From: Candidatus Omnitrophota bacterium
GTDB lineage: Bacteria > Omnitrophota > Koll11 > Zapsychrales > Zapsychraceae
Length of the DNA stretch: 14,514 nt
Reading direction: 5' to 3'
NCBI GenBank assembly: GCA_023140095.1
Contig: JAGLMJ010000018.1
Coordinates: forward strand, 1-14,514
The notes beneath the pieces were generated by a model that was not told the origin of the DNA, ran no database searches, and was given only the letters and a program-made list of their open reading frames with translations. The translations under genes and the position numbers were made by a program. Shown piece after piece: positions 6,411 through 14,490 of the stretch (positions are counted from its first letter, which is position 1; each line of letters opens with the position of its first letter).

Positions 6411-7475
6411 ATGACATTGGAGAAGTACGAAAAAATAGAACAGCGGTATGCTGAATTAGAACAGCTTCTTGCTGATCCGGAGGTGATCACCGACCAAGGC
6501 CAGTGCCAGAAACTGGCCAAAGAATATTCCGGGATCACGCCGGTCGTGACGACGTTCCGGTCCTACAAGGCAATTGTCGGGCAGATCGAGGAGACCGAAG
6601 AACTTCTTTCCGAGAAGCACGATGAGGAATTTGAGGCGCTCGCAAAAGTCGAGCTCGAAGACCTGACGGAAAAGAAACAGGAGCTTTTAGACCGTCTCAA
6701 TGATCTGACCAATCCGAAGAAGCATGAAAAAGACCGCGACCTGATCATTGAGGTCCGGGCCGGCACCGGCGGGCAGGAGGCGAGTTTGTTCGCGGCCGAC
6801 CTGTACCGGATGTACACAAAATTCGCCGACCAAAAGGGATGGACGGTCGAGGCGATCAGCAGTACGCAATCGGAGACCGGAGGGTTTAAGGAGGTTATTT
6901 TCAGCATCAGCGGCAAAGGCGCGGAGAAGCATCTGAAATGGGAGAGCGGCGCGCATCGTGTCCAGCGCGTTCCCGAAACAGAGGCGTCCGGACGCATCCA
7001 TACTTCTGCCGCGACCGTCGCTGTCTTATTTGAACCCGAAGAGGTCGATATCAATATTGATCCCAAGGACCTGAAAATTGATATCTTCCGTTCCTCCGGC
7101 CCGGGAGGGCAAAGTGTTAACACGACGGATTCGGCCGTTCGCATTACCCACTTACCGACGGGCCTTGTCGTCATCTGCCAGGATGAGCGCTCCCAATTGA
7201 AGAACAAGCACAAAGCGATGCGCGTGCTAAGGGCGCGTTTGATGGATAAGATCCAGAGCGATCGTTCCGATAAGGAGTCTCAGGACCGAAAACTCAAAGT
7301 GGGATCGGGCGATCGCAGTGAGAAGATCCGCACCTACAATTACCCGGACCGGCGCGTGACGGACCATCGTATCGGGTTTACGACGCACCGGTTGCCGTCC
7401 ATTATGGATGGAAATTTGGATGAAATCGCTGAAGCCCTGAATAAAGCGGATGCTGAGGAGCGAATGAATGACTGA
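6411..7475 (+). CDS. prfA: Peptide chain release factor 1
   Basis: A 354-residue class I release factor that recognises UAA and UAG and triggers peptidyl-tRNA hydrolysis on the ribosome. The stop-codon-reading tripeptide in the RF1 position is PET (188-190), a PxT form, which separates it from RF2 (SPF). The catalytic GGQ is at 232-234 within SSGPGGQSVNTTDSAVRITH; its glutamine is the substrate of PrmC, encoded next. The N-terminal third is a charged helical domain, and the length is normal (about 355-360). No clear Shine-Dalgarno precedes the ATG, which lies 2 nt after the rpmE stop, so translation may depend on reinitiation. There is no frameshift or in-frame stop. The gene overlaps prmC by 8 nt. 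Confidence 0.97.
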   Translation: MTLEKYEKIEQRYAELEQLLADPEVITDQGQCQKLAKEYSGITPVVTTFRSYKAIVGQIEETEELLSEKHDEEFEALAKVELEDLTEKKQELLDRLNDLTNPKKHEKDRDLIIEVRAGTGGQEASLFAADLYRMYTKFADQKGWTVEAISSTQSETGGFKEVIFSISGKGAEKHLKWESGAHRVQRVPETEASGRIHTSAATVAVLFEPEEVDINIDPKDLKIDIFRSSGPGGQSVNTTDSAVRITHLPTGLVVICQDERSQLKNKHKAMRVLRARLMDKIQSDRSDKESQDRKLKVGSGDRSEKIRTYNYPDRRVTDHRIGFTTHRLPSIMDGNLDEIAEALNKADAEERMND

Positions 7476-8280
7476 AAATGAATGGATGCTTACTTCTGTT
7501 CTGGATTGCCGGCGCGTGGATCTTACCGTCAACAAAGACGAATTAACTCCGGCGCAGAGATCCCGGTATGATTGGATGCAGGCCCGACGGATAGAAGGAG
7601 AGCCCTTGCAATATGTCCTGGGCCAATGCGATTTTATGGGCATTGCGCTTTCCGTCGACCGGCGGGCGCTTATTCCGCGTCCCGAAACGGAGATCTTAGT
7701 TGATCTGACTATTGAGAAGATCCGGTCCGGGCCTAAGAAGATGCGTAACGTGTTGGACATTGGCACCGGGTCCGGCAATATTACGGTCGCGCTTTTAAGA
7801 TATTTTTCAAACATGAACGTAACAGCTTTGGATATCAGCGACGATGCCTTAGCTTTGGCGATAAAGAATGCGCGAGCAAATAATGTTGAGGAGAGAATAC
7901 GGTTTCTCAACAATGACATGGTGTTTTACATGAGGGAGGCGGCGCGTCTGGGGGAGAGGTTCGATGTGATCATTTCCAACCCGCCCTATATTCTGACGGG
8001 GCAAATGGCGCAATTACCTGTCGATGTTCAGCGCGAGCCGCGCGTGGCCTTAGATGGCGGCAATGACGGCCTGCGGTTTTACCGGTCGATCATTGAACAC
8101 GGCTGGCAGCTTCTTTCGGCGGACGGCTTTCTGGTCATGGAGATCGGCGACGGCCAGCGAGGGGGTATCGAAGAGATCTTTGCCCAATATCCGCAATACG
8201 GGGAGATCAAATTTTATAAAGATTATGTGGGAACGGACCGGATCGTTCTTGCCCGGCCGGGGAGATCATGGAAAAATTAA
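7468..8280 (+). CDS. prmC: Release factor glutamine methyltransferase (N5-glutamine)
   Basis: A 270-residue SAM-dependent methyltransferase that methylates the glutamine of the GGQ motif in release factors, increasing termination efficiency. An N-terminal helical domain (with QYVLGQCDFMG and LIPRPETEILVD) precedes the class I fold. The SAM loop is VLDIGTGSGNITVAL, the acidic strand is TALDISDDAL, and the catalytic NPPY signature is in IISNPPYI. The family's ITG(R) segment before NPPYI is shortened. GAGGAG at 7455-7460 is 7 nt before the start, inside prfA. The 8-nt overlap with prfA and 13-nt overlap with murA indicate translational coupling. The pairing with its own substrate gene is common and supports the assignment. 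Confidence 0.95.
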   Translation: MTENEWMLTSVLDCRRVDLTVNKDELTPAQRSRYDWMQARRIEGEPLQYVLGQCDFMGIALSVDRRALIPRPETEILVDLTIEKIRSGPKKMRNVLDIGTGSGNITVALLRYFSNMNVTALDISDDALALAIKNARANNVEERIRFLNNDMVFYMREAARLGERFDVIISNPPYILTGQMAQLPVDVQREPRVALDGGNDGLRFYRSIIEHGWQLLSADGFLVMEIGDGQRGGIEEIFAQYPQYGEIKFYKDYVGTDRIVLARPGRSWKN

Positions 8281-9530
8281 TTATTGAAGGCGAGAGGCCC
8301 TTAAAGGGCGAAGTTAAGGTCAGCGGATCAAAGAATGCTGCTTTGCCGATCATGGCCGCGACCCTGTTGACCGACGAGCCTTGTGTGTTGCGCAATGTTC
8401 CCCAATTACGGGACACAAAAACGATGATAGCGCTTCTAGAGTCGTTGGGGAAAACCATTGAGGTTGCCGGAGACAAAGTAACGATTTCCTTAAAGGGCAA
8501 ACTGGATCATGTTGCCGATTATAAACTGGTTTCGACGATGCGCGGGTCGTTCTGCGTCTTAGGTCCGCTTCTTGCGAAATTGAAAAAAGCAAAAGTATCG
8601 TTACCCGGCGGGTGTGTTATTGGCATCCGTCCTGTTGATCTGCATCTTAAAGGACTCAAGGCGCTGGGGGCGAAGATCGATATCGCGAACGGTTATGTGA
8701 CGGCGCATGCCCGGCATCTTCGCGGGAGCCATGTGTATTTAGGCGGGATGTTCGGATCGTCGGTCCTGGCGACGGCGAATATTTTAATGGCCGCGACGCT
8801 TGCGAAGGGCCAGACGGTTATTGAAGCTGCGGCCTGTGAACCGGAGATCGAGAATCTCACGCAATTTTTGATCGCGATGGGCGCGAAAATTAAAGGCAAG
8901 GGCAGCCACTGTTTGACGGTCACCGGCGTTAAGAAACTCCGAGGGACGTCGTTTAAAATTATACCCGACCGCATTGAGGCCGGCACCTATATTTTAATGG
9001 CCGCCGCCACGAAGAGTTCGATCTCTTTAAAGAATGGGTGCTATTCGCATTTGATGGTGCTTATTGATAAGCTCAACCAGGCGGGCGTCAAAGTGACCAA
9101 TGAGGAAGGCCTTATAAAAGTCAAGCCGAGGAAATCCATTAAACCCATTGGGATCACCACGCATCCCTATCCGGGATTTCCGACGGACCTGCAGGCGCAG
9201 TTCATGGCGTTTATGTCCGTTACGCAGGGCGTCAGCGTTATTACCGATAAAGTTTATCCGGACCGGTTCATGCATATTGCGGAGTTAAACCGGATGGGAG
9301 CGAATATCCGGCGCGACGGGCCTAACGCGATCGTGCAAGGCATTAAGAAACTCTACGGCGCTCCGGTCATGGCGTCTGACCTTCGGGCTTCGGCGGCCCT
9401 GATCGTCGCCGGCTTGGCGGCCAAGGGAAGAACCGAGATCCACCGCATGTATCACTTAGAGCGCGGTTATGAGGCCCTCGATGAGAAACTTGCGGCTCTC
9501 GGCGCGAAGGTTTACAGGGAAGAGGAATAA
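8268..9530 (+). CDS. murA: UDP-N-acetylglucosamine 1-carboxyvinyltransferase
   Basis: A 420-residue enzyme for the first committed step of peptidoglycan synthesis, transfer of enolpyruvate from PEP to UDP-GlcNAc in the cytoplasm. The substrate-binding KN (22-23) is in [15 protein letters not shown]. The catalytic loop reads [15 protein letters not shown] with Cys116, the residue alkylated by fosfomycin, so the enzyme is predicted to be of the sensitive cysteine type. [27 protein letters not shown] and the C-terminal [14 protein letters not shown] are further EPSP/MurA signatures. The length is normal (about 417-420). The ATG overlaps the prmC stop by 13 nt. A close trpG start 3 nt after its stop suggests read-through into tryptophan genes. 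Confidence 0.97.
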
Positions 9531-9532
9531 TC

Positions 9533-10099
9533 ATGATCCTTATGATCGATAATTACGACTCGTTTACGTACAATCTTGTTCAATATTTCGGGGAACTCGG
9601 CGGCGATCTAAAGGTCTACCGCAATGATGCATTGACGCTGCCGCAGATCAAACGCATGCCGATTAGCAAAATTGTTATTTCTCCCGGGCCCGGCCGCCCT
9701 GAAGGGGCGGGGATCTCTGTTGATCTCATTCGCGAATTTGCCGGGACCATTCCGATCCTCGGTGTTTGTTTAGGGCATCAATGTATCGGGTATGCCTATG
9801 GCGGGAAGATCATACGGGCGAAAAAATTAATGCACGGAAAAACATCGATGATCCGCCATAACAACAAGGATATCTTTAGGGCGATCGAAAACCCGTTTGA
9901 AGCCACGCGCTATCATTCTTTAGTGATCGACAAGAAGACCATGCCTAAGTGCCTTGAAGTAACGGCAAGGACAAGCGACGGCGAGATCATGGCCCTTAAG
10001 CACAAAGTTTTTCCGTTATGGGGCGTTCAATTTCATCCCGAATCGATACTGACGACGGAGGGCAAAAGGATCTTGAAGAATTTTCTCAATTTACATTAA
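9533..10099 (+). CDS. trpG: Anthranilate/aminodeoxychorismate synthase glutamine amidotransferase subunit
   Basis: A 188-residue class I glutamine amidotransferase that supplies ammonia to the synthase subunit making anthranilate (TrpE) or aminodeoxychorismate (PabB). It begins [19 protein letters not shown], typical of TrpG/PabA. The oxyanion motif SPGPGRP is at 50-56. The nucleophile is Cys79 in GVCLGHQ. His168 and Glu170 in VQFHPES complete the triad. Length is normal. The gene starts 3 nt after murA, with a purine-rich GAAGAGG upstream. No TrpE or PabB is in the window. The adjacent trpD, trpC and trpF favour tryptophan synthesis, but one subunit often serves both pathways. Confidence 0.93.
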
Positions 10100-10100
10100 C

Positions 10101-10128
10101 GTAAGGGCGTATTGCAATACGCCCCTAC
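10101..10128. repeat. Near-perfect 28-nt palindrome between trpG and trpD
   Basis: A core of GGGCGTATTGCAATACGCCC (10105-10124) is a perfect 20-nt palindrome. With the flanking GTA and TAC it extends to 28 nt with one mismatched pair. It lies just after the trpG stop, 18 nt before the trpD ATG. Very similar GTAGGGGCGTATTGCAATAC-type palindromes are familiar to me as dispersed intergenic elements in unrelated bacterial genomes; this is recollection, not a search. As RNA it would form a strong hairpin with almost no loop. It has no T tract, so is not a standard terminator. Confidence 0.7.
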
Positions 10129-10146
10129 AACAAGGGATTTGCCAAT

Positions 10147-11169
10147 ATGAAATCTTACATCGAGAAACTACAGAACAAAAAAAATTTAACCCAAGATGAG
10201 ATCGAAGAGATCATGCATGAGATCATGTCGGGGGCGTCGGATGAAAATAATATCGCTGATTTCCTGCTCGCGCTTCGGGAGAAAGGGCCGACGGTTGACG
10301 AAATTACCGGAGCCGCTAAGATCATGCGCAAGTTTGTCGTTGGCATCGACACCAAGCACAAGGATATCTTAGATACGTGCGGGACCGGCGGCGATAAGAA
10401 GAACACGTTTAATATCTCGACGATCGCCGCGCTTGTCGTCGCGGGAGCCGGTGTTGCCGTCGCAAAGCACGGCAATCGGTCGGTTTCCAGTAAATGCGGA
10501 AGCGCGGATGTCCTTGAGGCGCTCGGCGTCAATTTGAATGTTGAACAAGAGCATTTAAGCGCTTGCCTTGATGAGGTTGGGATCGCTTTTTTATTCGCCC
10601 AAAAGCTTCACCCTGCGATGAAAAATGTGGCGTCGGTCCGGAAAAAACTTGGGGTTGAGACGATCTTTAACATTTTAGGGCCGCTGACAAATCCGGCCCG
10701 CGCGACGCATCAGATCATGGGTGTTTATAGCCGGGATCTCGTTGAGCCGATGGTCCAGGTACTCAAAAATTTAGGACTAAAACGCGCGCTGGTCGTCCAC
10801 GGCAGTGATGGCCTGGATGAGATCACGACGACCGACAAGACATTTATCAGCGAATATGACGGCAATGAGGTCATTTCCTATGATATTTCGCCGGATGAAC
10901 TCGGGATAAGCATCGCGCAACCGCGGGATCTCGAAGGCGGGGATCTCGAAACCAATGTCCGTATCTGTGAAGATATCTTGGGCGGCAAAGCCGGGCCGAA
11001 GAGGGATATCGTTCTCATTAATGCCGCCTATGCGCTTTATGTCGCGGGAAAGGTCTCGGATATATCTTCCGGAATGGACCTGGCCAAAGAGACGATCGAT
11101 TCAGGCAAGGCACTGGATAAACTTAACGAATTAAGAAACTTTACACAAAGATTTAAATATACTCTATGA
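10147..11169 (+). CDS. trpD: Anthranilate phosphoribosyltransferase
   Basis: A 340-residue enzyme for the second tryptophan-specific step, joining anthranilate to PRPP to give phosphoribosylanthranilate. The N-terminal helical domain precedes the PRPP-binding glycine motif GTGGD (79-83) in DTCGTGGDKKNTFNIST. KHGNRSVSSKCGSADVLEALGV is the second diagnostic segment, for anthranilate and PRPP contacts. FNILGPLTNPA and VHGSDGLDE are also conserved; the latter carries the metal-binding acidic pair region. Length is typical (about 335-345). An AAGGGA 9 nt upstream is the ribosome-binding site. The last codons and the stop lie inside the left arm of a long hairpin shared with the trpC leader. Confidence 0.96.
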   Translation: MKSYIEKLQNKKNLTQDEIEEIMHEIMSGASDENNIADFLLALREKGPTVDEITGAAKIMRKFVVGIDTKHKDILDTCGTGGDKKNTFNISTIAALVVAGAGVAVAKHGNRSVSSKCGSADVLEALGVNLNVEQEHLSACLDEVGIAFLFAQKLHPAMKNVASVRKKLGVETIFNILGPLTNPARATHQIMGVYSRDLVEPMVQVLKNLGLKRALVVHGSDGLDEITTTDKTFISEYDGNEVISYDISPDELGISIAQPRDLEGGDLETNVRICEDILGGKAGPKRDIVLINAAYALYVAGKVSDISSGMDLAKETIDSGKALDKLNELRNFTQRFKYTL

Positions 11170-11230
11170 GGTTATAATTTGGGATATTATTGAATTCGGA
11201 AAATCTCAATTTGTAACCTCATAGAGTATA
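11158..11230. repeat. 73-nt hairpin element between trpD and trpC
   Basis: The left arm (11158-11185) and right arm (11203-11230) pair along 28 positions, with two G-U wobbles and one T-T mismatch, around a 17-nt loop. The outer 17 bp, TATACTCTATGAGGTTA at 11158-11174 against 11214-11230, are perfect. The left arm includes the trpD stop codon. The right arm ends 8 nt before the trpC ATG, which has no recognisable Shine-Dalgarno. No U tract follows. Both a small inverted-repeat insertion and an mRNA control or processing hairpin would fit. Confidence 0.8.
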
Positions 11231-11238
11231 ACGGTCAA

Positions 11239-12024
11239 ATGTCAGAAGCCTTTTTAGCGAACATCCTGGATTACAAACGGGCTCTTATTAAAGAAAAGCG
11301 CGACTTTTATTTTTCACTAAAATGGAAGGTTAAAAAGTGCGCGCGTCCGCATTTATTCCGGGATATGCTCGCCGGGCCGGGGCAGATCAAGCTGATCGCT
11401 GAGGTCAAAAAGGCCTCGCCTTCAAGGGGGCTTATCCGCGAGGACTTTGATCCGGTGTCGATCGCTAAGATCTACGCGGAAAATAACGCGACGGCTATTT
11501 CTGTTGTGACCGAGGATAAATATTTTCTCGGGAAGCCGGAATTCGTAAAGCAAATAAGCAAGGCCGTCAACATTCCGATCCTGGCCAAAGATTTTATTAT
11601 TGATGAGGGGCAGATCCACGAGGCATTGGCCAATGGGGCGAACGCGGTTCTTTTGATCGTGGCCATATTGGATGATGTCCAGCTTAAGGGGCTGATCGAT
11701 AGGGCGCGTTCTCTGGGCCTTGATTGCCTGGTTGAGATCCATAATACAAATGAACTTAAGCGCGCTTGCGCTGCCGGGGCAGAGATCATCGGCGTGAATA
11801 ATCGCGACTTGCATGCTTTTGTTGTCGATATGCAAACCTGCAAGCGCCTTATCCCGAAGGTCCCGGAAGGAAAAATCATTGTCGGCGAAAGCGGATTTAA
11901 GAAATATTCGGAAGTCAAGGCTTTGAAAAATATCGGAGCTCATGGCGTGCTCATCGGAGAGACGTTCATGAGGGAACAGGACATTGGAAAAAAGATAAGG
12001 AAAGTGCTTTATGGTCAGAGTTAA
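11239..12024 (+). CDS. trpC: Indole-3-glycerol-phosphate synthase
   Basis: A 261-residue TIM-barrel enzyme that converts carboxyphenylamino-deoxyribulose phosphate to indole-3-glycerol phosphate. Family markers in order are AEVKKASPSRGLIREDFDP (the catalytic-lysine strand), ISVVTEDKYFLG, ILAKDFIIDEGQIHEALANGA, CLVEIHNTNEL, IIGVNNRDLHAF and IVGESGFKKYSEV for phosphate binding. The length equals the usual monofunctional enzyme, so it is not the TrpC-TrpF fusion of enteric bacteria. The start is preceded by a strong hairpin and no clear ribosome-binding site, which may lower or condition its translation. The last 14 nt overlap trpF. Confidence 0.96.
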   Translation: MSEAFLANILDYKRALIKEKRDFYFSLKWKVKKCARPHLFRDMLAGPGQIKLIAEVKKASPSRGLIREDFDPVSIAKIYAENNATAISVVTEDKYFLGKPEFVKQISKAVNIPILAKDFIIDEGQIHEALANGANAVLLIVAILDDVQLKGLIDRARSLGLDCLVEIHNTNELKRACAAGAEIIGVNNRDLHAFVVDMQTCKRLIPKVPEGKIIVGESGFKKYSEVKALKNIGAHGVLIGETFMREQDIGKKIRKVLYGQS

Positions 12025-12631
12025 AGTGTGTGGAATAACAAATAGCGAGGATGCCTTAAAAGCCGTTTATTATGGGGCTTGGGCGATAGGTTTTGTTTTT
12101 ACCAAAAAAAGCCCGCGATATATTTCGCCAAGCCGGGCCAGGAAGATCATTGAACAGCTACCGCCTTTTGTGACGCCGGTTGGCGTGTTTGTCGACCAAT
12201 CGGAACGGGCTGTCCGGGACATCTGCAAGTTTACCCGCATAAGCACGGTTCAGTTTCACGGAGAAGAAAAAGCTGTTTATTGCAAGCGATTTACGGATTT
12301 TAAGGTCATCAAGGCGTTCCGTATCGGGAATTATTTTCCTATTGATGTTATTAAAAAGTACAAGGTCGACGCATATTTGTTTGACACTTACGAGAAGGGA
12401 GTTGCCGGCGGAACAGGCAAGGTATTTAATTGGGATATCCTCAAAGAGCATAAAATCGAAAAGCCCGTGATCTTATCGGGCGGCCTCAATGCCGAAAATG
12501 CCCGGGAGGCTCTGGAGGCAACAAAACCCTTTGCGATCGATGTTTCAAGCGGGGTGGAGAAGGCTCCTGGGATCAAAAATCCGCGCCTGATCCGTGGGTT
12601 TTTTGAGGCTGTAAACTTCGTAAGTCGTTGA
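12011..12631 (+). CDS. trpF: Phosphoribosylanthranilate isomerase
   Basis: A 206-residue TIM-barrel isomerase that performs the Amadori rearrangement of phosphoribosylanthranilate, the step between TrpD and TrpC. The start MVRVKVCGIT carries the catalytic cysteine (Cys7). WAIGFVFTKKSPRYISP and VQFHGEE follow. The later LSGGLNAENAREAL and IDVSSGVEKAPGIKNP carry the second catalytic residue (Asp177) and the phosphate loop. The length is typical (about 200-210). The start overlaps trpC by 14 nt, so the pair are probably coupled. It is the last tryptophan gene here; trpB and trpA, which often come next, do not follow. Confidence 0.95.
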   Translation: MVRVKVCGITNSEDALKAVYYGAWAIGFVFTKKSPRYISPSRARKIIEQLPPFVTPVGVFVDQSERAVRDICKFTRISTVQFHGEEKAVYCKRFTDFKVIKAFRIGNYFPIDVIKKYKVDAYLFDTYEKGVAGGTGKVFNWDILKEHKIEKPVILSGGLNAENAREALEATKPFAIDVSSGVEKAPGIKNPRLIRGFFEAVNFVSR

Positions 12632-12652
12632 AAATAAGTCGACTTTAGTCCC

Positions 12653-12681
12653 TTGAAAATTGTTGAGAAATATGGTATTCT
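12653..12681 (+). promoter_or_regulatory. Sigma70-like promoter ahead of the riboswitch
   Basis: TTGAAA (12653-12658) matches five of six bases of the -35 consensus. TATTCT (12676-12681) matches four of six of the -10, with an optimal 17-nt spacer. Transcription would start near 12688, almost at the first base of the 14-bp stem that encloses the RNA element (12687). This agreement supports a separate transcription unit after trpF. No promoter activity is proven. Confidence 0.55.
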
Positions 12682-12686
12682 TACAG

Positions 12687-12866
12687 TAAGCCGATAAAGG
12701 TAAACCCAGGGAAACTTGGGGGCACAAAACTACAGACCTAAATTGTCTGATACCTAAAAGGCCCTAAGAATTGCATTGGGCATCTAAGACATACGAACGG
12801 TTGATGGCGAGATGGTGGCTGAGTTGCCGAAGTGCGGTGAGGGAGACATCCTCCTTTATCGGCTTA
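12687..12866 (+). ncRNA. Candidate cyclic-di-GMP-I (GEMM) riboswitch
   Basis: The region matches the GEMM-I plan. AAGGTAAACC (12697-12706) opens the core. CCCAGG-GAAA-CTTGGG (12705-12720) gives a stem capped by the GNRA tetraloop. GGCACAAAACTACAGACCTAA (from 12721) resembles the CGCAAAGC-tACGGGtCTAA core. GATGGTGGCTGAG (12811-12823) with GTTGCCGAAG (12823-12832) resembles the 3' receptor and closing strand. By alignment to the Vibrio Vc2 RNA, the ligand-contact positions G20, A47 and C92 would be G12700, A12727 and C12827; the G favours c-di-GMP over cGAMP. Two core Gs are A here. The P2 arm is enlarged by inner helices. A perfect 14-bp stem (12687-12700 with 12853-12866) encloses everything. 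A terminator follows directly. Confidence 0.68.
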
Positions 12867-12871
12867 TTTTT

Positions 12872-12911
12872 CTCTTCTTTAAGGGAATGTTCCTTAAGAA
12901 GAGTTTTTTTT
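12872..12911 (+). terminator. Intrinsic terminator, likely the riboswitch expression platform
   Basis: CTCTTCTTTAAGG (12872-12884) pairs with CCTTAAGAAGAG (12892-12903), 12 bp with one bulged T, followed by eight Ts (12904-12911). This is a textbook intrinsic terminator. It lies 5 nt after the stem enclosing the riboswitch and 65 nt before the next start codon. It therefore probably controls read-through into the downstream genes. A clear antiterminator was not identified, so the direction of control cannot be read from the sequence. Confidence 0.85.
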
Positions 12912-12976
12912 GTTCAAAATCGGTCTTTTTATGCCAAATAATTCATAACCCACTGGAAACACTAAAGATAGAGATA

Positions 12977-13462
12977 ATGGAGCAAAAAATCAAAAAAGAA
13001 CATTTAAAAGCCTTTTCAGGGGAACATTTGTACTATGAATTGAATATGTTTTTCGGCCTTAGTAAGCTTTTACGCAAGGGGGTCAATGACCAGTATGTGT
13101 ATAGCGCGATCCTGGAATCGTTCGTTATCCACACCTGCCTTATTCTCGATTTCTTCTATAAACCGCCCCGAAAAGAGGATGATGCCTCGGTTCTCCATTT
13201 TATCGATGATGTCAGGAAATGGAAGAGATTGCGGCCTTCCTATGATAAATATTTCAGGAAATTTCACCGTAGGCGCAGCCGGGAAGTGGTCCATTTAAGC
13301 TACAAGCGCCTGGAAGTTGAGAAGAGCGAGAAATTGTGGAATACAGGAAAGATTGTCCCATCTGTCCGTCAGCTTCTTTCGGTATTTTTCGAGGTGGCCA
13401 ACCCCGAGTTCCTGCATCCCAATATGCACAAGCTAAAGCATCTGATAAAGGAGACCCTATGA
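12977..13462 (+). CDS. Uncharacterised 161-aa protein, possibly HEPN-like
   Basis: The function is not known to me. It is predicted soluble and helical, without a signal peptide or clear membrane segment. The segment SAILESFVIHTCLILDFFYKPP (43-64) and HLSYKRL (106-112) resemble a widespread family of conserved hypothetical proteins with patterns like ESFxIHxRNLxDFxY and HLTYxR. R100-x5-H106 fits the Rx4-6H motif of HEPN ribonuclease domains, but the fold is unproven and the region is simply arginine-rich. The start at 12977 is chosen because an earlier in-frame ATG (12887) lies in the terminator loop; the ribosome-binding site is weak. The stop overlaps the DAHP synthase start by 4 nt, so the two are coupled. 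It lies behind the candidate riboswitch and terminator. Confidence 0.75.
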   Translation: MEQKIKKEHLKAFSGEHLYYELNMFFGLSKLLRKGVNDQYVYSAILESFVIHTCLILDFFYKPPRKEDDASVLHFIDDVRKWKRLRPSYDKYFRKFHRRRSREVVHLSYKRLEVEKSEKLWNTGKIVPSVRQLLSVFFEVANPEFLHPNMHKLKHLIKETL

Positions 13463-14490
13463 GCTTTGAATATGTACAAAAAATCCCTAATGTCGACGAA
13501 ATCCTGGCCGAAATGCCGTTGAGCGAGGATATCAAGCGCATCAAGGCAGAGCGTGACCAAACGATCAAGAATATTTTCAAAGGGGACGACCATAAACTCC
13601 TTTTGATCATAGGCCCATGTTCCGCGGATAGTGAAGATTCCGTCTGCGAGTATGTCGGTAAGCTTGCAGCACTGCAGGAGAAAATTGCCGAGAAAATCGT
13701 CCTTGTGCCGAGGATCTATACCAATAAGCCCCGGACGACGGGCGAAGGCTATAAGGGGATGGCGCATCAGCCCGTCCCGACGGAAGATCCGGACATCGTC
13801 GCGGGCCTCAAGGCGATCCGCAAAATGCACTTGCGCGTGCTGCGCGAATCGCATTTGACGGCGGCCGACGAAATGCTTTATCCGGGCAACTATCCTTATT
13901 TAGCGGATGTCTTAAGTTATGTCGCGATCGGCGCGCGGTCCGTCGAAAATCAACAGCACCGGCTGACGGTCAGCGGCCTGGATATTCCTGCCGGGATGAA
14001 AAATCCGACGAGCGGCGACCTGACCGTTATGCTCAATTCCATTCAAGCGGCGCAAAGGCCGCATGTCTTTATCTATCATGACTGGGAGGTCAAAACGCCG
14101 GGCAATCCGCTGGCGCATTGTATCCTAAGAGGCGCGATGGACAAGGAAGGCAAAAGCATTCCCAATTATCATTATGAAGACATGGTCAAACTGTCGGATA
14201 TGTATCGTAAACGCGGTTTTGAGAACCCCACGATCATCGTCGATACCAATCACGCCAATTCGGATAAGAAATTCGCCGAGCAGCCGCGCATTGCCATGGA
14301 AGTGATCGATAGTCTCAAGAAGTCGGATGAGCTCCGGGGGATCGTCAAGGGGCTTATGATCGAAAGCTATTTGGTCGAAGGCGCGCAAAGCGCCAGCGAG
14401 CGGACATACGGCAAATCGATCACCGATCCCTGCCTCGGCTGGGAAGATTCCCAGCGGCTTGTATTGGATCTGGCCGATTCCCTAACCTGA
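13459..14490 (+). CDS. 3-deoxy-D-arabino-heptulosonate 7-phosphate synthase, class I alpha (AroFGH type)
   Basis: A 343-residue DAHP synthase that condenses PEP with erythrose 4-phosphate, the entry step of the shikimate pathway. It has IIGPCSADSED with metal-ligand Cys54, and VPRIYTNKPRTTGEGYKG, where Lys90-Pro-Arg92-Thr-Thr bind PEP. RESHLTAADEMLYP, GARSVENQQHR, PAGMKNPTSGD and IVDTNHANSDKK follow. Together these mark the E. coli AroF/AroG/AroH group (about 350 residues). The N-terminal extension that carries feedback inhibition is present, so inhibition by an aromatic amino acid is plausible; which one cannot be told. AAAGGAG at 13447-13453 is 5 nt upstream. The ATGA overlap couples it to the 161-aa gene. 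A longer frame from 13336 is rejected. Confidence 0.95.
   Translation: MSFEYVQKIPNVDEILAEMPLSEDIKRIKAERDQTIKNIFKGDDHKLLLIIGPCSADSEDSVCEYVGKLAALQEKIAEKIVLVPRIYTNKPRTTGEGYKGMAHQPVPTEDPDIVAGLKAIRKMHLRVLRESHLTAADEMLYPGNYPYLADVLSYVAIGARSVENQQHRLTVSGLDIPAGMKNPTSGDLTVMLNSIQAAQRPHVFIYHDWEVKTPGNPLAHCILRGAMDKEGKSIPNYHYEDMVKLSDMYRKRGFENPTIIVDTNHANSDKKFAEQPRIAMEVIDSLKKSDELRGIVKGLMIESYLVEGAQSASERTYGKSITDPCLGWEDSQRLVLDLADSLT

Follow-up and report, generated by a model that had tools for sequence, protein, structure and literature searches.

A probable stand-alone c-di-GMP-binding small RNA with its own start and stop signals in Omnitrophota

A riboswitch aptamer is nearly always taken to be a switch for the gene that follows it. 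In Bdellovibrio bacteriovorus, merRNA contains a c-di-GMP riboswitch domain without a conserved downstream ORF and has been proposed to be a non-coding c-di-GMP store (PMC3627812). According to the excerpts of that paper used here, merRNA is 445 nt long, is massively expressed by RNA-seq and, in its authors' view, shows no conservation outside Bdellovibrio; it is also treated in PMC11323537, likewise drawn upon in excerpt. Among stand-alone, orphan, sponge or reservoir c-di-GMP RNAs, merRNA was the sole like case within the excerpted open-licence literature, and a search of that literature for riboswitches of Omnitrophota (or Omnitrophica) returned no report.

merRNA is the closest known counterpart of the RNA described here, which lies between trpF and a DAHP synthase gene in a 14,514-nt stretch of a Candidatus Omnitrophota bacterium genome (contig JAGLMJ010000018.1; hereafter the window). 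The two are likened by description, not by sequence: as far as the excerpted account of merRNA goes, both combine a c-di-GMP riboswitch domain with the lack of a conserved downstream ORF. Unlike merRNA, the Omnitrophota RNA spans 125 to 283 nt between the ends of its closing helix (P1, or clamp), is found phylum-wide and is clamped before a U-run. With the RF01051 riboswitches Vc2, Vc1 and Bc1 it shares the aptamer fold, the ligand-contact residues and, for the window RNA and part of its relatives, competition from a hairpin for the clamp's 3' strand; it differs from RF01051 riboswitches in having no single conserved downstream gene, a closing helix directly before a U-run, and large variable inserts. 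Rather than a riboswitch of aroF, the window RNA is in our view probably an autonomous small RNA that binds c-di-GMP and carries its own start and stop signals. Comparison of related loci brings out a predicted aptamer, a conserved putative promoter, a conserved and covarying closing helix and a U-run; most genomes of the window's clade have a single strong copy of the predicted RNA, and no single downstream gene is kept. The features of the window are the following.

12011..12631, + strand: trpF (phosphoribosylanthranilate isomerase), upstream of the RNA; PF00697 at 5.9e-43, NCBIfam NF002298 above cut-off
12653..12681, + strand: promoter, with -35 TTGAAA at 12653-12658, 17 nt, -10 TATTCT at 12676-12681 and TG before the -10
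12686..12700, + strand: P1 5' strand, its upper part (GATAAAGG) overlapping the conserved entry strand of the aptamer; G20 equivalent at 12699
12689..12831, + strand: c-di-GMP-I aptamer (RF01051), 63.7 bits against a threshold of 35
12705..12720, + strand: P2 hairpin with a 6-bp stem (12705-12710/12715-12720) and GAAA tetraloop (12711-12714), from the RF01051 match
12741..12813, + strand: long P3 insert, with helix 12743-12747/12806-12810 and hairpin 12761-12764/12778-12781, from the RF01051 alignment
12830..12865, + strand: alternative terminator-like local hairpin, which takes the P1 3' strand when P1 is open
12839..12853, + strand: small hairpin P4, between the aptamer and the P1 3' strand, from a constrained fold; weakly supported
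12852..12866, + strand: P1 3' strand, CCUUUAUCGGCUUAU, from folding; P1 pairs 2-11 formed in 88-91 of 91 loci
12864..12871, + strand: U-run UUAUUUUU, directly 3' of P1; proposed RNA end
12872..12911, + strand: second intrinsic terminator, an imperfect hairpin (12872-12903) and 8 T
12977..13462, + strand: hypothetical gene of 161 aa, next downstream; no Pfam match above cut-off and no NCBIfam match
13456..14490, + strand: DAHP synthase (aroFGH type); PF00793 at 1.4e-48, TIGR00034 above cut-off

The sequence-only reading had named the element a c-di-GMP-I (GEMM-I) riboswitch from a series of landmarks, all of which lie in order where it had placed them, namely the AAACCC entry, GCACAAAAC, CAGACCTAA and GATGGTGGCTGAGTTGCCGAAG, the last ending at 12832. 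A cmscan of the whole window with 4227 Rfam families gave RF01051 as the sole match at gathering thresholds, the full-length model covering 12689-12831 of the + strand (E 8.6e-11), while the control family c-di-GMP-II (RF01786) stayed below its gathering threshold anywhere in the window. By this covariance-model search, which that reading had itself proposed, the predicted element is confirmed as a c-di-GMP-I aptamer. The alignment places a long insert inside the distal stem; elsewhere in the Omnitrophota family this P3 insert varies widely in length and sequence. The 229-nt stretch 12686-12914 folds better than all 200 of its shuffles (z -4.06).

In GEMM-I RNAs, G at position 20 goes with c-di-GMP and A with cGAMP (GEMM-Ib). 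The window has G at 12699, as had been claimed from the sequence, where a GEMM-Ib RNA would have A, and on this rule the RNA is predicted to bind c-di-GMP and not cGAMP; the G20 equivalent is G in all 91 loci compared. Excerpts of PMC4744006 name G20, A47 and C92 (Vc2 numbering) as ligand-contact residues, and residue roles were also taken from those of PMC11218506. The RF01051 alignment puts the equivalents at 12699, 12726 and 12827, the last being presumably the right one of two C residues, and the 27-nt spacing from G20 to A47 agrees with what both excerpted sources give. A GNRA tetraloop and a tetraloop receptor in P3 are both found, the receptor of the window being the non-canonical CCUAAA/GAUGG. 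The form that we take to be canonical, CCUAAG/UAUGG, occurs in 17 of 93 loci and looser forms in 86.

The RNA recurs at the same place in L001, a close relative, from another Candidatus Omnitrophota with an 87% identical DAHP synthase. That locus also carries a Group II intron match (RF02001, 54.6 bits) at 7578-7689, downstream of its DAHP synthase gene, which ends at 7026. RF01051 matches were found in all 18 Omnitrophota genomes reached via the loci (1 to 10 each, 17 genomes over the cut-off) and in each of 55 relatives, of which 54 exceeded the cut-off. Most of the matches inspected were ordinary, that is, a shorter aptamer with a separate terminator or none, followed by a gene. A search for the exact 5' motif AGCCGATAAAGGNNAAC yielded 46 matches in 44 of 285 genomes of the phylum, its reversed control giving 0 among the matches listed. 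The motif query did not require the complementary 3' strand, which was present in 41 of the 43 usable matches and absent from two (L202, L213); L211 and L216, which lack an aptamer, and L232, at a contig end, were left out, and duplicates (L202 = L240, L207 = L239, L155 = L225) were counted once.

Alignment of 22 members left 93.3% of cells paired, against 34-48% for slid structures, with both-side changes at 15 pairs, where shuffling gives 9.2 on average and reaches 15 in one of 500 shuffles. This covariation comes mostly from P2 and P3, P1 hardly varying among these members: both-side changes affect five of the six P2 pairs, and helices 5 and 7, in the P3 insert, pair in 98.2% and 96.6% of cells. 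Support is weak for the short helix 64-66/111-113 (59.1%), and P4 is paired in 60.7% of cells of the MAFFT alignment. A covariance model, R1, gave 81 hits of at least 70 bits in 79 of the 285 genomes searched, four of these genomes being ordinary or unclear (G196 = L213, G244 = L303, G181 = L310, G241 = L318). Among 46 further loci, mainly missed by the motif, 42 have at least 10 of 12 clamp pairs, the remainder being L303, L306, L323 and L325. These 42 and the 51 loci found by Rfam or motif make up the 93 loci considered here, within which L310 and L318 resemble ordinary riboswitches and L324 is doubtful.

The length between clamp ends varies so much across the family that a message shared in the inserts is hardly likely. 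Nine loci (L206, L207, L208, L209, L214, L226, L229, L233 and L235) have a large extra insert on the P2 side of the aptamer, and L214 scores 35.2 bits with RF01051, just at the threshold. L024 (5792-5886) and L035 (5610-5703) have about 95 extra nt, mutually similar, between the aptamer and the 3' clamp strand; the longer 3' domain of L024 matched no Rfam family besides RF01051 at E up to 1.

Folding of the window gives a gapless closing helix of 15 pairs, 12686-12700 with 12852-12866, immediately followed by UUAUUUUU. Over 91 loci (the 93 without L310 and L318), pair 1 forms in 65 and pair 12 in 76, beside the nearly invariant pairs 2-11, although part of this evidence comes from 42 loci partly chosen for pairing, since R1 contains P1. 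Both-side changes occur at pair 10 in 11 loci (A-U 69, G-U 10, G-C 11; n=91), at pair 1 in 10 loci and at pairs 3, 4, 5, 6 and 7 in one or two each, and none was seen at pairs 8, 9, 11 and 12 in the 91 loci; changes at pair 2 and part of those at pair 3 are confined to the doubtful L324. Pair 10 belongs to the aptamer entry strand and adjoins the G20 equivalent (pair 11), and a pairing able to cover the binding pocket therefore seems to be conserved. The upper clamp, which pairs the G20 equivalent and the bases beside it, covaries there from AAAGG/CCUUU to AAGGG/CCCUU.

The 3' strand of the clamp has a second potential partner in the window. The local hairpin 12830-12865 reaches -17.7 kcal/mol when folded alone, the terminator scan lists 12835-12861 as terminator-like with 11 pairs, and both this hairpin and the closing helix precede UUAUUUUU. 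In L312 and L322, where the 3' strand is changed, the clamp keeps five of five pairs and the local GCCGA partner three of five. Across the 91 loci, local pairing takes up on average 7.0 of 11 bases of the 3' strand, where shuffled linkers give 6.1 (at least 8 of 11 in 40 loci, fewer than 5 in 14); the 44-nt segment that ends at the clamp is more stable than its shuffled-linker versions, at a mean z of -1.5 (below -2 in 29). Since the compensated L312 and L322 keep the clamp and local pairing is barely above chance, the 3' strand is better supported as part of the predicted long-range clamp; the local hairpin, though real in the window, is not uniform across the family. In a helix scan of 71 c-di-GMP-I hits, 11 scored at least 9, a cut-off that carries no meaning because 87 of 1056 mismatched controls also reach it; the window, L001 and L145 score 13.5-15.5, above all controls (maximum 12.5), while L148 ties the control maximum and L146, L024 and L035 (11-11.5) fall below it.

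The promoter that the sequence-only reading had seen is present but weak when taken alone, there being two TTGAAA-17-TATTCT-like sites in 1 kb against 1.5 expected by chance. It becomes convincing through its conservation: of 92 related loci, 87 reach a promoter score of at least 8/12, as do only 16% of 1840 background positions; in 83 of the 92 the -10 stops 5-8 nt short of the clamp, and in 63 the spacer is 17. The predicted transcription start falls at about the first base of the closing helix. The terminator which the same reading had placed just after the aptamer is likewise there, resolved into several elements, namely the closing helix, the local hairpin, and a further hairpin with eight T. 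At least 6 T lie within 10 nt 3' of P1 in 70 of 91 loci against a background of 7.7%, the other 21 having no 6 T in that interval. The second terminator is kept in L001, with a stem that differs in sequence and still pairs, and a perfect-stem second terminator lies within 120 nt in 52 of 93 loci (background 2.6% of 267), a test that misses the window's own bulged terminator and so counts the window among the other 41.

These paired stop signals could also be read as a c-di-GMP-gated attenuator of a longer small RNA, in which bound and unbound forms would end at different terminators and give a short or a long RNA. The upper clamp and the ligand pocket share bases, the local hairpin competes with the clamp, and the opening cost with the aptamer formed (about 10.5 kcal/mol) is of the order of a nanomolar binding energy. 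We hold this to be very improbable, for in either state a stem forms ahead of one and the same U-run, the family does not have the local hairpin uniformly, 41 loci have no perfect-stem second terminator and the energies, from ViennaRNA, are blind to ligand and tertiary contacts.

The window holds, at 8268-14490, the order murA - trpG - trpD - trpC - trpF - RNA - ORF161 - aroF, and upstream of it ORFs identified by eye as polA, glgA, coaE, rho, rpmE, prfA and prmC; trpE was not seen among the window ORFs. The RNA could also be a 3' element of the trp operon, into which trpCF transcripts would read and which would terminate or stabilise them, possibly with tuning by c-di-GMP. Of the 93 loci, 28 have TrpF on the same strand ahead of the RNA, at no more than 250 nt in 17 cases, and in the window the terminator scan lists nothing on the + strand from the end of trpF to the RNA. 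The promoter, however, sits in this gap with nearly fixed spacing, 64 of the 93 loci show no TrpF in the stretch examined (often only about 1.5 kb a side) and trpF is convergent downstream in one (L220), so that we rate such a role as quite unlikely.

Downstream of the RNA no one gene is constant. The sequence-only reading had assigned the riboswitch to the gap between trpF and the DAHP synthase gene; the c-di-GMP-I aptamer stands, while the RNA recurs in many genomes without those downstream genes, AroF following it in 7 of 93 loci and the hypothetical gene in 2. A cis-acting riboswitch, in which c-di-GMP would decide terminator read-through into the hypothetical gene and aroF and tie aromatic amino-acid synthesis to c-di-GMP, has several points in its favour: both genes follow on the same strand, at 113 nt and about 590 nt; the more distant relatives L024 and L035 likewise have the RNA between trpF and aroF; some clades retain a downstream ORF; and the clamp has a terminator-like local competitor, the arrangement of ordinary riboswitch platforms. 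In Bacillus, a dual terminator of Bc1 is used in cis, according to excerpts of PMC11218506. Against this, the clamp itself ends at the U-run and the alternative fold therefore does not obviously spare transcription, the 3' strand of the clamp in L337 and L338 is inside a separate terminator hairpin, and the AroF match of L035 starts 287 nt 3' of the RNA, no gene being visible in the interval. Neither aroF nor the hypothetical gene stays with the RNA, which makes c-di-GMP control of either unlikely, and we regard the cis-acting explanation as a whole as unlikely too.

Gene orientation points the same way as the counts of AroF. The nearest downstream ORF lies on the other strand in 22 of 89 loci, but in only 4 of 62 cases for the remaining c-di-GMP-I hits in the same genomes, the convergent cases coming largely from a few clades; nine convergent ORFs of at least 369 aa either stop no more than 10 nt from P1 or run 19 nt into its 3' end. 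Same-strand downstream ORFs are no farther off than after the other hits, a point against the stand-alone reading: they begin at a median of 104 nt (32 of 67 within 100 nt), against 99 nt (31 of 58). ORF calling was crude, taking the longest non-overlapping ORFs of at least 80 aa for strand counts and of at least 70 aa for recurrence, the latter over 53 loci. Within clades some downstream ORFs do recur among these 53: a 100-aa ORF in 9, a second neighbour in 8, a small cysteine-rich protein in 7, and a glycosidase-like gene starting FPxGFLWGA.. as 9 ORFs of 8 loci. The last start is presumably that of a family-1 glycosidase, and ahead of this gene lies a stretch resembling a terminator and a promoter. 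Such recurrence could also come from gene order inherited in common.

The 161-aa hypothetical protein had no match in PDB or NCBIfam and none in Pfam above cut-off. Counting the window's member, its family numbers 65 proteins at E up to 0.001; three of these carry an organism name, in each case one from Omnitrophota. Elsewhere the family occurs in other gene contexts, and eight other loci with homologues (L112-L119) showed no c-di-GMP-I element at the gathering threshold in the stretch examined.

Judged from its sequence, the RNA has its own promoter and terminator and no conserved downstream ORF, as would be expected of a merRNA-like RNA; the last point is weakened because downstream ORFs recur within clades. 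As a stand-alone RNA it would be transcribed from its own promoter, bind c-di-GMP and act as a free RNA of about 180 nt, or about 220 nt if the second terminator were used. A clamp of 12-15 bp directly before the U-run would end the RNA where the aptamer closes, and in the window the local hairpin could replace the clamp on the 3' strand, with both forms predicted to end at the same U-run. We take signal binding to be the probable function because promoter, aptamer and clamp are kept while the inserts vary: the RNA may be a c-di-GMP reservoir or sponge, as proposed for merRNA, or a trans-acting RNA switched by c-di-GMP. The free RNA could be clamped shut over the G20 equivalent, and ligand binding would open a few upper-clamp pairs while the lower clamp would stay. 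ViennaRNA energies, which ignore ligand and tertiary contacts, are -59.2 kcal/mol for the fully clamped form, -53.7 for the aptamer with the full clamp and -48.7 for an open pocket with the lower clamp. A ligand bound at nanomolar affinity, as quoted in the excerpted PMC3627812, could roughly pay the opening cost from -59.2 to -48.7.

It is possible, though we advance it only tentatively, that this is a vertically kept, phylum-wide c-di-GMP reservoir or buffer RNA whose sole conserved role would be to bind the signal and whose closing helix would serve both as terminator and as a lid on the empty pocket. If so, merRNA-type second-messenger storage RNAs would not be a Bdellovibrio oddity. A conserved one-copy aptamer RNA without a fixed gene would make the proposal of second-messenger RNA reservoirs testable across a phylum, and RNA abundance relative to free c-di-GMP would offer a handle on signalling in Omnitrophota, which are mostly uncultured.

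Copy number was examined under laxer filters in 37 close relatives, 32 of which have exactly one hit of at least 100 bits, the next best hit being 86.3 bits among the matches listed; 18 of the 32 genomes supplied sequences to the model and 14 did not. GGDEF domains, which make c-di-GMP, were found in all eight Omnitrophota genomes searched for them. Among the hits inspected from other phyla, searched with R1, none was recognised as belonging to the family, although the strict filters of the larger genome searches can lose members. Thirty genomes taken from DAHP-synthase hits reached at most 61.7 bits with R1, except L021 (= G024), which is in the Omnitrophota set. In 118 genomes from the phylum of a Nitrospirae-labelled record, one hit had an E of 1e-14 or better, at 62.5 bits, and proved to be an ordinary riboswitch. 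Virus-borne copies were also considered and rejected: on inspection, none of 10 exact-motif matches in viral contigs continues as the aptamer, and the viral-contig locus L334 has CTTTATCGGC by chance.

In 118 genomes from the phylum of a Deltaproteobacteria-labelled record, R1 gave five hits at E 1e-14 or better (86.6, 70.5, 66.1, 65.1 and 60 bits), of which those of 86.6 and 70.5 bits were rejected as family members, being A20-type elements with the clamp inside a terminator. The elements L337 and L338 (reverse strand, about 1500-1660), which we take to be GEMM-Ib (cGAMP)-like and A20-type, have a clamp of nearly the same sequence (ACCGATAAGAG / CTCTTATCGG) as the Omnitrophota RNA; they differ from it in having A at position 20 and the clamp 3' strand inside a terminator hairpin, whereas the Omnitrophota RNA has G20 and a U-run directly after the clamp. 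L337 and L338 are possibly related to the Omnitrophota RNA by descent.
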